This document shows positions 13,572-19,132 of a stretch of DNA of 64,000 bases, in pieces; the stretch's first letter is position 1; each line of letters starts with the position of its first letter. The position numbers and the translations under genes were made by a program. The stretch comes from Gloeobacter kilaueensis JS1 (GTDB lineage: Bacteria; Cyanobacteriota; Cyanobacteriia; Gloeobacterales; Gloeobacteraceae): assembly GCF_000484535.1 (NCBI RefSeq), contig NC_022600.1:2666001-2730000 (forward strand). The letters are read 5' to 3'. The notes beneath the pieces were generated by a model that did no database searches, was not told the DNA's origin, and saw only the letters and a list, made by a program, of their open reading frames with translations.

Positions 13572-13810
13572 TGCGCACTGGTTCTATCTGGAAGTTTTGA
13601 GTAGTAAACCCATCTTCGCGGCAGGGAAGTTGTCGATAGCTTGATCGATGAGGAGGCTTTCATTTTCTGTCTTTTAGCTTGGGGGAGTGATGGGCGTTTG
13701 AACCGGGTGATCCGCGCTGCGTCTAAATCGGTCAGTGGACGGAGCAACGCTACTGTCACTATCATGAAGGAATCTGCAGAAGGTGGTGGGTCACTCTCCT
13801 GGAGGTGGCG

Positions 13811-14518
13811 ATGAGATTTTACAGGCTTGCACTTCTGGCTTTGCTACTGGCAGCGTTTGTTCCTGGCCGGGCTGTTGCTTCGGGCGAGAGCAACCTGGTG
13901 CTCAACGGCGGCAATAGCGAAAACGACGACACATACAGCAAGTTGTACCTCTCCTCGTCGGCCTACGTGATCAAAGACAAGGACTATTCTCCCGAACAGC
14001 CGCGCTTTGGTCTATTTACTACCTGGTTTTTTGACCCGCTGCAGGACGATCGCTTCGCCGTCCGGGCGCGCTACTGCGTGCCCACCGGCAACATCGATGG
14101 TGAGCAGGCAAGCCTGGAGCGATTGGAGCTGCTCGACGACGGCAAGGTGCTCGTCGCCCTGCAAGAAAGCAACAGCAGCCTCCCTGCCCGGCGCGAGATC
14201 GTGCAGGCTGCCTACTACAGCGAAGGCTACCGGCAACCCGTCTACCGCTACGCGCTCACCAAGTTTGGTCTGGTGCCGGTTCTGGCGGGCTACAGCTCCG
14301 GGCCGCCAATCTTCCACCAGGCAGTGAGCTGCGCCTCCGGTACGAGCGGATTTGATCTGGGCGGGGTGGCCGACGCCCTCGCAGCCCTGCCCGACAAGAC
14401 GCTCAAGGTGCAGTTGCACTTCAGCAACGGCGATGTGAGCGGCTGGCAACTGGGCTCCGGCACCGTGCGCGAGTTAAAGCGCCTGGTTGCCCTGCGCCGG
14501 GAGCTGGCAGGTGGTTGA
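13811..14518 (+). CDS. Secreted hypothetical protein, paralogue of the protein at 54094-54816
   Basis: This is a 235-residue exported protein. The ATG at 13811 follows a GGAGG by 5 bp and gives a clean signal peptide (LALLALLLAAFVPGRAVAS). The mature part shares a pattern with the protein at 54094-54816: YSKLY...VIKDKDY...QPRF, RYCV, LELLDDGKVLVAL, SCASG, FDLGGV, ALAALPDKTLKVQL and WQLGSGTVRELKRL. Both have a Cys in RYC and one in the SC/DC motif, which could pair in the periplasm. No enzyme motif is seen. It appears to belong to a lineage-specific secreted family of unknown role. Confidence 0.75.
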   Translation: MRFYRLALLALLLAAFVPGRAVASGESNLVLNGGNSENDDTYSKLYLSSSAYVIKDKDYSPEQPRFGLFTTWFFDPLQDDRFAVRARYCVPTGNIDGEQASLERLELLDDGKVLVALQESNSSLPARREIVQAAYYSEGYRQPVYRYALTKFGLVPVLAGYSSGPPIFHQAVSCASGTSGFDLGGVADALAALPDKTLKVQLHFSNGDVSGWQLGSGTVRELKRLVALRRELAGG

Positions 14519-14545: not shown

Positions 14546-15682
14546 ATGGCCCAGCTTCAGCCGCGCACTCCCGCCCGAGAGCGGCTGATCCGATCGGCGA
14601 GCGCGCTTTTTGCTCTTCAGGGCGTGCGCGAGACGACGACGCGGCAAATTGCCGAGCGGGCGGGCGTCAACGAGGTGACCCTGTTTCGCCAGTTCGGCAA
14701 CAAGCAGGGGCTGCTGCTGGCTTTGATCGAAGAATCGAATCTTTTTGACGTCCTCAGGGTAGCTCCCGCCCTGCTACCGGTGAGCCGTCCGCAGTTGCGC
14801 GATTATATCGAGGCCCGGCTTAGCGCCTTTGAGCAGTTGCCGGAATTTGTCCTGTCGCTTGTGGCCGAAACAGCCGATCCGACAGCGATCGAGCGACAGA
14901 CCCCGAGCCGCCAGATCCCAGACGACCCAGCCAACCAGAGCGATCCATCGCCCTCGGCCCGCCGCGCCGATTTGCTCGATACCCTGCTTCTGGGCTGGAC
15001 GTTCAAAAAATGGCTGGGCATCGCCACCGGCCCGCAGCAGGGGCGAGCGGACTTTCTGGAGAGCGTGGCAGGACTATTCGAGCAAAGCACTTCTGCCCTG
15101 CTGCCGGATGATGGGCAGCCCCCAGTCCACGAACTTTCTGCCGCCTTCGTCCACCGCCTGCTGGATAGTGCCCGCAAATCCAGCCCCCAGGATTACGCGC
15201 TCCTCTACGTACTCTTCGCTGCCGGGCTGAGTGCGGCTGAAGTGAGCGCTCTGCAGCGCACCGACTGGATCGGTGAGAGCGATCGGCAGTTGCTGCAGGT
15301 GGGTAACCGCCAGGTACCGCTCAACCGCCAGATCCTGGGCAAACGCTACGGCTCTTCTACCCACAACCCCCTCAGCCGCTGGCTGAAGTCGCGCCGCGAT
15401 CAGCAGAATGCTCTATTTCTCAACGAAGTTGCCAGACCCCTGTCCGTCCAGGAAGTGCAATTTCGCTGGGAGGTCTGCATCCAGAAGATCGTAGCGGCCA
15501 CGGAGAGCGCACCGACCGTCGAGCAGGCCCAACAGACCTGGCGGGTCGAGATGCTCCTGCGCGGCATCGACCTCGACACCCTGGCCATTCTCAGCGGTCA
15601 AACACCCGAGCAACTGCAGCCTTTCGCCCGCCGCGCCCGAGAAAAATTGGCCCTCGAAAAAGCCCTCCAGCTCGACGGCTGA
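14546..15682 (+). CDS. TetR-type regulator fused to a degenerate tyrosine-recombinase-like domain
   Basis: This 378-residue protein is about twice the usual TetR length. Residues 10-60 form a TetR DNA-binding domain (TTRQIAERAGVNEVTLFRQF). Residues about 215-375 read like a phage-integrase catalytic domain with its active site lost. AAGLSAAEVSALQ matches the XerC-type TGLRxSELxxL with Ser for Arg. Then TWRVEMLLRGIDLDTLAIL matches the helix that normally carries HxLRH, without His or Arg, and SGQTPEQLQPF has Gln for the GH His and Phe for the nucleophilic Tyr. It probably acts as a DNA-binding regulator. Twin palindromes and a desaturase gene follow directly, so it may control lipid unsaturation in a DesT-like way. 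The fold of the C-terminal half is inferred. Confidence 0.75.
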   Translation: MAQLQPRTPARERLIRSASALFALQGVRETTTRQIAERAGVNEVTLFRQFGNKQGLLLALIEESNLFDVLRVAPALLPVSRPQLRDYIEARLSAFEQLPEFVLSLVAETADPTAIERQTPSRQIPDDPANQSDPSPSARRADLLDTLLLGWTFKKWLGIATGPQQGRADFLESVAGLFEQSTSALLPDDGQPPVHELSAAFVHRLLDSARKSSPQDYALLYVLFAAGLSAAEVSALQRTDWIGESDRQLLQVGNRQVPLNRQILGKRYGSSTHNPLSRWLKSRRDQQNALFLNEVARPLSVQEVQFRWEVCIQKIVAATESAPTVEQAQQTWRVEMLLRGIDLDTLAILSGQTPEQLQPFARRAREKLALEKALQLDG

Positions 15683-15702: not shown

Positions 15703-15719
15703 TGCAAGTGGCACTTGCA
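15703..15719. promoter_or_regulatory. Operator-like palindrome 1 of desaturase promoter
   Basis: TGCAAGT-GGC-ACTTGCA is a perfect 7-bp-arm palindrome, 21 bp after the stop of the TetR-type gene. A weak -35-like TTGCAT overlaps its right arm. A TAGGCT lies 17 bp further on as a possible -10. An identical-arm copy lies 48 bp downstream, centre to centre. Confidence 0.7.
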
Positions 15720-15750
15720 TATTTGGCAGCGGGCTGATAGGCTACAGACA

Positions 15751-15767
15751 TGCAAGTAAGACTTGCA
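15751..15767. promoter_or_regulatory. Operator-like palindrome 2 of desaturase promoter
   Basis: TGCAAGT-AAG-ACTTGCA has the same arms as the copy at 15703-15719 and differs only in the 3-bp centre. It lies just after the likely transcription start and 13 bp before the desaturase ATG, so a bound protein would block transcription or early elongation. The regulator encoded immediately upstream is the obvious candidate. Confidence 0.7.
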
Positions 15768-15780
15768 TTTGAGGCATTTT

Positions 15781-16635
15781 ATGAAAACCCATTCTTCTGC
15801 TTTGAGCGGCCTGGCGTCGCTCAAGTGGCCGCTCGTCGGTTTTATTGGCACCGTTCATCTTCTGGCCTTGCTGGCTCCCTGGTGTTTTAGCTGGTCCGCC
15901 CTCGGGGTTGCGCTGCTGCTGCACTGGTTGTTGGGCGGTATCGGCATCTGCCTGGGCTACCACCGGCTGCTGGCTCACCGCAGCTTCCGGCTGCCGCAGC
16001 TTCTGGAGCGGGCGGTTGCCCTCCTCGGCGCGCTGGCTCTGCAGGGCGGCCCGATCTTCTGGGTAGCGGGGCACCGGCGGCACCACGCCTGGACGGAAGA
16101 TCCGACTCGCGATCCACACGCTTCCACGCGCGGCTTCTGGTGGAGCCATCTGCTCTGGCTGGTCCAGCCCCAGGCCCAGCCACCGGCAGAAAAGTTCGCT
16201 GCGGATCTGGCCTGTCAACCGTTCTACAGGTGGCTGGAGCGCTATCATCTGTTGCTGCAATTGCCCTTCGGGTTGCTGTTGTTTCTATTGGGCGGCGTTC
16301 CCTTCGTCGTCTACGGCATCTTTGTGCGCACGGTTTTGCTCTGGCACACCACCTGGCTCGTCAACTCCGCCGCCCATCTGAGCGGTTATCGCTCCTACCA
16401 GACCGCCGACTGCTCGCGCAACCTCTGGTGGGTGGCCCTGCTCACCTACGGCGAGGGCTGGCACAACAACCACCATGCCCATCCGCGCGCCGCTCGGGCC
16501 GGTCTGCTGTGGTGGGAGGTCGATCTCACCTGGGGAACGATCCGGCTCCTGGAGATGGTGGGGCTGGCCCGCAAGGTGGTTCGACCATCCTGCCTTGTCA
16601 ACTGTGAGTCCGTTACCAGCAAAGTTCGAGGATAG
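15781..16635 (+). CDS. Delta-9-type fatty acid desaturase
   Basis: This 284-residue membrane desaturase introduces a cis double bond into acyl chains using a di-iron centre. The three histidine boxes are intact: HRLLAHRSF, HRRHHAW and HNNHHAHP. Hydrophobic spans sit near residues 18-52, 82-96 and 150-190. The ATG at 15781 is preceded by GAGG. The upstream TTG at 15763 lies inside a palindrome and is not used here. Two identical-arm palindromes flank its promoter, and a TetR-type regulator gene precedes it, so expression is likely repressed or tuned by that regulator. Confidence 0.93.
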   Translation: MKTHSSALSGLASLKWPLVGFIGTVHLLALLAPWCFSWSALGVALLLHWLLGGIGICLGYHRLLAHRSFRLPQLLERAVALLGALALQGGPIFWVAGHRRHHAWTEDPTRDPHASTRGFWWSHLLWLVQPQAQPPAEKFAADLACQPFYRWLERYHLLLQLPFGLLLFLLGGVPFVVYGIFVRTVLLWHTTWLVNSAAHLSGYRSYQTADCSRNLWWVALLTYGEGWHNNHHAHPRAARAGLLWWEVDLTWGTIRLLEMVGLARKVVRPSCLVNCESVTSKVRG

Positions 16636-16659: not shown

Positions 16660-17355
16660 ATGGTTGCCGTGTCCACTGCCCCAGACAGCAGCCCGAGGCG
16701 TCAGACTATCGAAATTCAAAACGATGCCTCCGCCACCTTCGATCCCCAACGCTGGATCGCAACGACGACGAGTGGCCTGGAAGCAGTCTTCAGCGCCGAT
16801 CCGAACGTGCTGGTGGCAAGCAGCCTCACCTGGTTTGCAATCGAGGACAACCCGGCTATCCGCATCGTTCCGGATGTAATGGTCGTCTTTGGCCGTCCCA
16901 AAGGACCGCGCGGTGCCTATTATCAGTGGAGCGAGTACGACATCGTGCCCCAGGTGGTCTTCGAGCTGGTCTCACCGGTCGAATCGCTCACCCAACTGGC
17001 CAAAGAATTTGCCTTCTACGAGCGCTACGGCGTCGAAGAATATTACCTCTACGATCCGCTCAAAGAAGATATCTGCGGCTGGCTGCGCTATCAAAACCGG
17101 CTGGAGGTGATCGATCCGATCCAGGGCTGGCTCAGCCCCCGGCTGGGGGTGCGCTTCGAGCTGACCCACGAAGGACTCGAACTGTACCGCCCCGACGGTC
17201 AAAAACTCGGCACCTACGAGGAACTGGAGCGCCAGCGCGCCCTCGCCCTCCAACAACTCGAAGAGGAGCGCCAGCGCGCCGACCTCGAACGGCTGCGGGC
17301 CGAACGCCTCGCCGAACAACTGCGTTCTCTGGGGATCGACCCTGAAAAGCTCTAG
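16660..17355 (+). CDS. Uma2-family (DUF820) PD-(D/E)XK nuclease-like protein
   Basis: This 231-residue member of the Uma2/DUF820 family is highly expanded in cyanobacteria and carries a PD-(D/E)XK nuclease fold. Putative active-site residues are the PD in RIVPDVMVVFG, the Glu in VFELVSPVES and the Lys in KEFAFYERYGVEEYYLYDP. The last 45 residues are a charged coiled coil (repeated E, R, Q, A, L), common in this family. The biological role of these proteins is unsettled, and no partner gene is visible. Confidence 0.9.
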   Translation: MVAVSTAPDSSPRRQTIEIQNDASATFDPQRWIATTTSGLEAVFSADPNVLVASSLTWFAIEDNPAIRIVPDVMVVFGRPKGPRGAYYQWSEYDIVPQVVFELVSPVESLTQLAKEFAFYERYGVEEYYLYDPLKEDICGWLRYQNRLEVIDPIQGWLSPRLGVRFELTHEGLELYRPDGQKLGTYEELERQRALALQQLEEERQRADLERLRAERLAEQLRSLGIDPEKL

Positions 17356-17455
17356 CCCCGCCCAATTGCGCCTATCTCCCCTAAGTCGCTAGAGATAGAG
17401 TTGTTTGGGTTTAGAGAACTTGCTACGATCCGAGGCACTCCAGCTCTACACTTCC

Positions 17456-18817
17456 ATGACAGAAACTGCCCACGCCTGCTGCGGTCCCGGCTACGCTTCA
17501 CCGGAGGAGGCGCGCCGTGCGCCCCGCGAAAAGCTGCTCTATACGATCGCCCTTTACACCGGTTCAGGCGTCGAGGCCGCCGATTATCTGGCGACGATCG
17601 ACGTCGATCCGGCCTCGCCCACCTACTCGCAGGTCGTCCATCGCCTGCCGATGCCCTACCTTGGCGACGAGCTGCACCATTTTGGCTGGAATACGTGCAG
17701 CTCCTGCCACGGCGACGCCGAAAAAACCCGCCGGTTTTTGATCATCCCCGGCATCCGCAGCAGCCGCATCTACATCGTCGATACCGCCGATGCCCGCGCT
17801 CCAAAATTACACAAGATCATCGAACCCGAGGCGATCAAGGCGGCGACGAACCTGAGCGCTCCCCACACCGTCCACTGCCTCGCAAGCGGCCAGGTGATGA
17901 TCTCGATGCTGGGCGACGGCGAGGGCAACGGGCCGGGCGGATTTTTGTTGCTCGACGAGCGCTTCGAGATCGCCGGGCGCTGGGAAAACAAAGCCGACGC
18001 CATGCGCTTTAACTACGACTTCTGGTACCAGCCGCGCCTCAACGCGATGGTAAGTAGCGAGTGGGGGGCTCCGCGCACGTTCTACGGCGGCTTTGCCCTC
18101 GAAGACGTGACAGCCGGAAAGTACGGCCAGCAGATTCACTTCTGGGACTGGGCAAAGCACGAGATTATCAAGAGCGTCGATCTGGGTTCCGACGGTCTTA
18201 TCCCGCTGGAGGTCCGCTTTCAGCACAACCCCGACAGCAGCCACGGCTTTGTCGCCGCCGCCTTGAGCAGCAACATCTGGCACTGGTACCGCCCAGACGG
18301 CGAGTGGCAGGTGCAAAAAGTAATCGACATCGAACCGGTGGAGCTGGCGGGCTGGGCCTTTCCGGTTCCCTCGCTCATCACCGATCTGTTAATCTCCCTC
18401 GACGATCGCTGGCTGTACCTGTCCAACTGGCTGCACGGCGACATCCGCCAGTACGACATCAGCGACCCCCTCCATCCAAAACTCGCAGGCCAGGTCTGGG
18501 TGGGCGGCTTACTTGGTAAAAGCGGCAACGTGCAGGGCCACAAGCTGGGCGGTGGCCCGCAGATGCTGCAACTGAGCCTCGATGGCAAACGGCTGTACGT
18601 GACCAACTCGCTTTTTAGCACCTGGGACAACCAGTTCTATCCTGAGCTGGCCAAAGCCGGTTCCTACCTGCTGCAGATCGACGCCGACACCGAGAACGGC
18701 GGCCTGGCGGTCAACGAAAATTTTTACATCGACTTTGGTAAAGAACCCGCCGGTCCCGCCCGCGCCCACGAGATGCGCTATCCAGGAGGCGATGTCACCT
18801 CCGATATCTGGGTTTGA
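17456..18817 (+). CDS. Selenium-binding protein family (methanethiol oxidase-like)
   Basis: This 453-residue protein belongs to the SBP56/SELENBP1 family, some members of which oxidise methanethiol to formaldehyde, H2S and H2O2. The N-terminal [12 protein letters not shown] with its Cys pair, the CSSCHGD motif (about residues 80-86) and several conserved His-containing stretches (SAPHTVHCL) are present. The ATG at 17456 starts at the family's usual point. A TTG at 17405 would add 17 residues. A [2Fe-2S] ferredoxin gene begins 3 bp after the stop, which suggests the two act together. Substrate specificity is not proven by sequence. Confidence 0.88.
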
Positions 18818-18820
18818 GCC

Positions 18821-19132
18821 GTGCCGACCTACCCGATCGAACTGGTCAACCGCGAGGGGTACCGCATCGCCGTCGAGGCGGACCAGTTCATCCTCGCCGC
18901 CGTCGAAGCTGCTGGAGTGCGCCTGCCGGTCGGCTGCCGCTACGGTGCCTGCATCACCTGCGCCGCCCGCTTGATCGAGGGCGAAGTGGATCAACCTGGG
19001 GCGGTCGGGCTGCGGCCAGAACACATCGCCCAGGGCTACGTGCTGTTGTGCGTCGCCCAGGCGCGCTCCCACTGCCGCTTCGAGGTGGGCCTCGAAAGCC
19101 AGGCGGCTCTTTACACCAATCCCTTTCAATAA
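18821..19132 (+). CDS. Plant-type [2Fe-2S] ferredoxin
   Basis: This 103-residue electron carrier has the chloroplast-type cluster motif. The Cys ligands are visible in GCRYGACITCA (Cys-x4-Cys-x2-Cys) and the fourth in VLLCVAQ. It starts with GTG, 3 bp after the selenium-binding-protein-family gene, so it is almost surely co-transcribed and translationally coupled. A photosynthetic role is possible, but the linkage points to electron transfer with the upstream enzyme. Confidence 0.92.
   Translation: MPTYPIELVNREGYRIAVEADQFILAAVEAAGVRLPVGCRYGACITCAARLIEGEVDQPGAVGLRPEHIAQGYVLLCVAQARSHCRFEVGLESQAALYTNPFQ

Follow-up and report, generated by a model that had tools for sequence, protein, structure and literature searches.

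A TetR-type regulator fused to a catalytically dead Xer-like domain is a predicted repressor of the adjoining DesC2-type desaturase in cyanobacteria

The TetR-type proteins DesT, FabR and MadR regulate unsaturated fatty acid or desaturase genes (PMC8872791). Repressors that have a tyrosine-recombinase fold and have lost the catalytic residues are represented by MrpR (YopR), the master repressor of the Bacillus prophage SPbeta (PMC10516654; PDB ID: 8a0a), and by SroF of phi3T (PDB ID: 9rgl). MrpR consists of a core-binding domain and an inactive catalytic domain, contains no TetR part and has a prophage role, and the authors of that work suspected that recombinase folds have been recruited more widely (PMC10516654). 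TetR desaturase regulators and recombinase-fold repressors are known separately, and a fusion of the two is apparently undescribed; in open-licence papers, we found neither a TetR-recombinase fusion nor a dedicated regulator of cyanobacterial desC. We also know of no recombinase-like domain in DesT, FabR or MadR.

The window analyzed here, meaning the whole 64,000-nucleotide stretch of the Gloeobacter kilaueensis JS1 genome, encodes such a fusion on the + strand at positions 14546-15682: a 378-residue regulator combining a TetR unit with a catalytically dead Xer-like domain. A sequence-only reading of this DNA had described a TetR head joined to a recombinase-like domain, and its coordinates, protein length and peptides (GLSAAEV at residues 227-233, SGQ at 350-352 and LQPF at 357-360) proved exact. 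The TetR head is well supported. Residues 14-60 form an N-terminal helix-turn-helix (HTH) matching TetR_N (PF00440; E 1.5e-14, 53.9 bits against a cutoff of 24), and a helical ligand/dimerisation domain follows, residues 8-187 of the window model aligning with AcrR (PDB ID: 6a4l; Z 11.8, VIA-align) and TetR_C Pfam families being matched in 20 of 34 relatives. The third TetR-family feature, a palindromic operator at a neighbouring gene, is represented by candidate sites located through sequence searches. Since the TetR part (residues 1-187, positions 14546-15106, + strand) is complete, the recombinase fold comes in addition to the ligand domain and does not stand in for it. Both partners of the proposed join are present, but the TetR partner is a full HTH and ligand-domain unit (residues 8-187) and not a head alone. 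No specific sequence orthology to DesT, FabR or MadR was found, with the NCBIfam FabR model scoring 12.5 bits against a cutoff of 151. The best PDB sequence match, obtained through the TetR part, is Mce3R (PDB ID: 9b7y), a TetR repressor of 406 residues and thus longer than usual. Mce3R is hit by the TetR profile in two stretches, as a double TetR would be, whereas the second half of the window protein is a recombinase fold.

Taken alone, the window protein gives only weak scores for this second half (Pfam Phage_integrase, E 0.002, below the family cutoff; NCBIfam XerD, E 1.5e-4, and XerC, E 1.7e-4), and relatives were therefore gathered. Phage_integrase is matched by 31 of 34 diverse relatives (best E 1.1e-9), and a profile of the C-terminal half retrieves the archaeal XerA-like structure 4a8e (E 3.4e-6). 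An AlphaFold2 model built with 34 sequences has a mean pLDDT of 81, with values mostly above 90 over residues 190-378 and low confidence at residues 110-131 and 184-188; at a pTM of 0.55, the model does not fix the placement of the TetR and Xer-like parts relative to each other. Folding the C-terminal domain from its single sequence yielded a poor model (mean pLDDT 50). The best structural match of residues 193-378 in VIA-align is XerA (PDB ID: 5hxy; Z 20.5, rmsd 3.2, 171 residues), followed by XerH, Cre and the integron and lambda integrases. The C-terminal half (residues 190-378, positions 15113-15679, + strand) thus has the catalytic-domain fold of tyrosine recombinases, as the sequence-only reading had suspected, which rules out an ordinary TetR ligand domain. 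The recombinase-fold repressors are matched as well, namely SroF (9rgl, Z 13.1) and MrpR/YopR (Z 11.9-12.5; 11.9 for 8a0a).

No core-binding Pfam family was matched in the window protein or its relatives, the N-terminal part being the TetR unit. XerA, XerC and XerD share the fold of residues 190-378, but the window protein lacks their catalytic residues and core-binding domain. Unlike MrpR, it carries a TetR unit in the place of the core-binding domain, has only the inactive catalytic domain and is tied to a desaturase. The stretch RQVPLNQWILGKRYGSYTNNPLTQWLKSRKD, rich in basic residues, is among the most conserved of the Xer-like domain, which is under purifying selection (median dN/dS 0.128, compared with 0.054 and 0.060 for the TetR parts). 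The domain was found only as a TetR fusion (30 of 30), and no phage relatives of it were detected in viral contigs.

Mapping of the catalytic positions by alignment with 4a8e bears out the earlier claim that every one of them is lost in the window protein: the first Arg is S229, the hairpin Lys is absent, HxLRH has become E326/Q329/Q330, the second His, in the GH motif, is Q352 and the Tyr is F360. Among 142 distinct family members, 131 retain the Tyr, 34 have Arg at 329, 41 have His at 330 and 34 have Trp at 352, while only 3 have Arg at 229 and none has His at 326. A full R-K-H-R-H/W-Y active site is present in 0 of the 142. The window protein is one of eight members in which all these residues are lost and marks the extreme of the family. 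This pattern would fit an active recombinase ancestor whose active site was later lost. Many loci of family f25 (L019, L020 and others) keep Arg 329, His 330 and Tyr 360, and their operators are spaced by 51-53 bp; an intermediate stage of active-site loss may survive in this lineage.

A survey of homologues showed that the fusion is no single-genome oddity. By our own count from the match table, about 165 of 388 genomes of the cyanobacterial class encode a full-length match, and full-length relatives of 39-54% identity occur throughout the class of the window genome. All 80 named contigs with full-length relatives are labelled cyanobacterial except one from a bin labelled Chloroflexaceae. That contig (L105) carries a typical cyanobacterial fusion, desaturase and operator pair and is probably cyanobacterial DNA placed in the wrong bin. 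Among near relatives of the window genome the gene is patchy, since two other congeners and one further genome of its taxonomic family gave no match at E 1e-15.

The inferred target lies immediately downstream of the regulator, at positions 15781-16635 on the + strand with its start codon at 15781. It encodes a 284-residue DesC2-type (clade delta9-1) acyl-lipid desaturase (Pfam FA_desaturase, E 4.9e-21). Its boxes GYHRLLAHRSF, HRRHH and GEGWHNNHH, in longer form GICLGYHRLLAHRSF, HRRHHAWTED and YGEGWHNNHH, fit clade delta9-1 except for R in place of K in box 1; the clade includes the sn-2 specific DesC2 of Nostoc (PMC2593844). A desaturase adjoins the regulator in each of the 77 named cyanobacterial loci whose neighbour could be tested; it is divergently oriented and 57-66% identical to the window desaturase. 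More broadly, a desaturase is found beside the fusion gene at 163 of 164 fusion loci, the sole exception being L090, where the sequence before the regulator is only about 440 bases long. The window and its congener G001 share a tandem arrangement on one strand, with the regulator first, then the operators and then the desaturase. A second desaturase match in the same genome (L214; G000:C1:3699478-3700284) is 57% identical to the window desaturase, contains an in-frame TGA and has no operator pair.

Between the regulator and the desaturase, two predicted operators lie 48 bp apart, both conforming to the candidate operator palindrome of the family, TGCAAGTNNNACTTGCA. The distal operator, TGCAAGTGGCACTTGCA (positions 15703-15719), holds the predicted -35 box of the desaturase, and the proximal operator, TGCAAGTAAGACTTGCA (15751-15767), covers the transcription start, which is predicted near 15750. 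Whole-genome pattern searches showed no exact match to GCAAGTNNNACTTGC in the 4.7 Mb other than these two sites. With the family matrix the two sites score 29.1 and 21.9 bits, the next best score in the 64 kb being 0.3. Chance palindromes were rejected as an explanation: 0.14 were expected in the window and 3 found, with one pair per genome. The pair is present at 163 of 164 fusion loci, a set that counts some genomes twice and shrinks to 67 loci once similar spacers are merged. Of 194 genomes searched, 86 contain the pair pattern, each at a single place that coincides with a regulator gene, and none contains a reversed control pattern. The palindromes could serve another protein, though they track the regulator gene.

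The spacing is 46-48 bp at most loci (123), and a second group of 28 loci has 51-53 bp; the overall range of 42-60, 70 and possibly 85 bp shows no clear helical period. The outlying spacings are those of L120 (60 bp), L121 (70 bp) and L014 (85 bp); in L120 the -10 box keeps its usual 17-bp distance to the distal operator, and in L121 it sits near the proximal one. At the tandem loci, i.e., in the window and G001, the pair precedes the desaturase and not the regulator, which points to the desaturase as the target, and the window pair is not placed for autoregulation. At divergent loci autoregulation is likely, because there the pair also lies just before the start of the regulator itself.

Family-wide geometry allowed a promoter to be predicted in the window. 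In the direction of the desaturase, the distal operator terminates in TTGCA, so that the predicted -35 box TTGCAT (15715-15720, + strand) overlaps it, and a predicted extended -10, TGATAGGCT (15735-15743, + strand), places its TAGGCT 17 bp from the -35, at a position where TANNNT is conserved. A TANNNT box is found 16-18 bp past the operator-embedded TTGC in 65 of the 67 non-redundant loci (shuffled-spacer mean 6.7) and is preceded by TGN in 55 of them (shuffled-spacer mean 0.4). In 49 of 63 loci, 5-6 bp separate the -10 from the start of the proximal operator. Apart from the extended -10, no conserved spacer sequence was found. As predicted from these sequences, both operators lie within the footprint of RNA polymerase, which is a repression layout; operators so placed at sigma-70 promoters are typical of repression. 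In many divergent loci (e.g., L043 and L047) a TACTGTARC-like motif, absent from the window, follows about 10-15 bp past the proximal operator and may be another regulatory element.

We propose that the protein is a dedicated repressor of the adjoining desaturase, with two dimers, an acyl-type signal and Xer-like oligomerisation, and assign this explanation as a whole a probability of roughly 0.72. From the predicted layout we infer that two TetR dimers bind the two palindromes flanking the -10, covering the -35 and the start site, respectively, and that the bound repressor would keep RNA polymerase out. The signal that would lift the repressor off the DNA is probably acyl-lipid or fatty-acid-derived and sensed by the TetR ligand domain, on the analogy of DesT and MadR, and it is probably linked to acyl-chain saturation (PMC8872791). 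The neighbourhood, the predicted operators and the promoter layout of the window fit the TetR-desaturase pairing of DesT, MadR and FabR, with which the window protein would share TetR-type repression of a desaturase and, likely, acyl-group sensing. For the dead Xer-like domain the likeliest role is that of a protein-protein (oligomerisation) module that would help two dimers to hold both sites, which we assign with somewhat less than even confidence. More speculative is the idea that a retired recombinase domain kept a synapsis-type oligomerisation and now locks two TetR dimers across the promoter. Bridging of two operator sites, a possibility already raised from sequence, would fit the DNA insofar as paired palindromes exist beside the gene; rigid bridging is unlikely because the spacing varies without a clear helical period.

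If true, such locking of two dimers would constitute a cooperative two-operator switch, conserved in cyanobacteria ranging from Gloeobacter-like to filamentous forms. The DesC2-type acyl-lipid desaturase, a membrane-fluidity enzyme of many cyanobacteria, would gain a named regulator, and a recombinase fold would have been co-opted for gene control in cellular genomes through fusion to another regulator family. The exact predicted operator and promoter are now available for testing.

Natural losses of the Xer-like domain make its role directly testable. Ten genomes encode a desaturase-linked regulator without the domain, seven of them (two lineages) having one operator and three having two. In family f7 the domain is missing from all eight genomes. 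The six f7 genomes of genus g10 retain the -35 operator alone, the start-site operator having decayed, with remnants AAGCAAG or AAGCGAG at its position in several of them; the f7 genera g65 and g162, with one genome each, keep both operators, and the regulator reading frame of the g65 genome is split. Outcomes also differ between the TetR-only genomes G216 (family f25), with one operator, and G031, with both at a distance of 47 bp. The DNA downstream of TetR-only regulators yielded no remnants of the Xer-like domain. Among the 164 fusion loci, only L203, likewise from family f25, has a single operator. These patterns hint, as a lead rather than a result, that the start-site operator becomes dispensable once the Xer-like domain is lost, the independent events being few and not all agreeing. 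A strict rule equating TetR-only regulators with one operator is weakened by the three genomes with both. The Xer-like domain is not indispensable, since TetR-only regulators persist with one or two operators. At L164 (G098), what looks like a frameshift divides a TetR-only regulator into two overlapping frames, and both operators remain.

These losses bear on whether the Xer-like domain takes part in operator use at all. It is possible, if doubtful, that the domain is idle in this respect and that the pair and its spacing merely reflect the promoter's need for a -35, a -10 and a start site, with two independent TetR dimers blocking it. The spacing tracks promoter geometry (17 bp between the boxes and 5-6 bp from the -10 to the proximal site) and could be fixed by that geometry alone, and three TetR-only genomes keep both sites. 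However, an idle domain is at odds with the purifying selection acting on it and with the loss of the start-site operator in seven TetR-only genomes (two lineages) against 1 of 164 fusion loci, a difference that is only suggestive given the few independent events. We regard it as unlikely that the domain instead binds DNA without cutting and clamps the spacer of about 30 bp with its -10, as MrpR does its elements. The fold is retained at high confidence in AlphaFold and VIA-align, MrpR and SroF illustrate that recombinase folds are able to act as DNA-binding repressors, and the conserved stretch is basic, yet the core-binding domain, which provides half of the DNA grip of recombinases, is absent. 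Sequence-specific contact of the domain with the spacer is likewise unsupported, because no sequence is conserved there beyond the extended -10.

The direction of control is a separate matter, since some TetR-family proteins, e.g., FasR, activate transcription and one operator of the pair lies at the -35. An activator or dual regulator of the desaturase nevertheless appears improbable, as the -35 overlaps the distal operator and the other operator covers the start site 5-6 bp after the -10, both of which are typical of repression. Finally, the protein could be thought of as an active site-specific recombinase working at or near its own promoter region, given that the fold matches Xer, Cre and Int, that most members keep the Tyr and that a minority keep one Arg and one His. 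With no full catalytic set in any of the 142 members and not a single catalytic residue in the window protein, the chance of this is negligible, and for the window protein itself the lost active site led us to reject it. The preferred reading remains that of a repressor with two dimers at the desaturase promoter.

The genes flanking the regulator and desaturase were also annotated. A 237-residue open reading frame without a Pfam match (positions 13805-14518) lies on the same strand as the regulator, stops 27 bp upstream of that gene and may share its transcript. Directly after the desaturase, a Uma2-family protein is encoded at 16660-17355 (Pfam, E 1.4e-12), and an SBP56 selenium-binding protein at 17405-19132 (E 3e-213) is directly followed by a 2Fe-2S ferredoxin.
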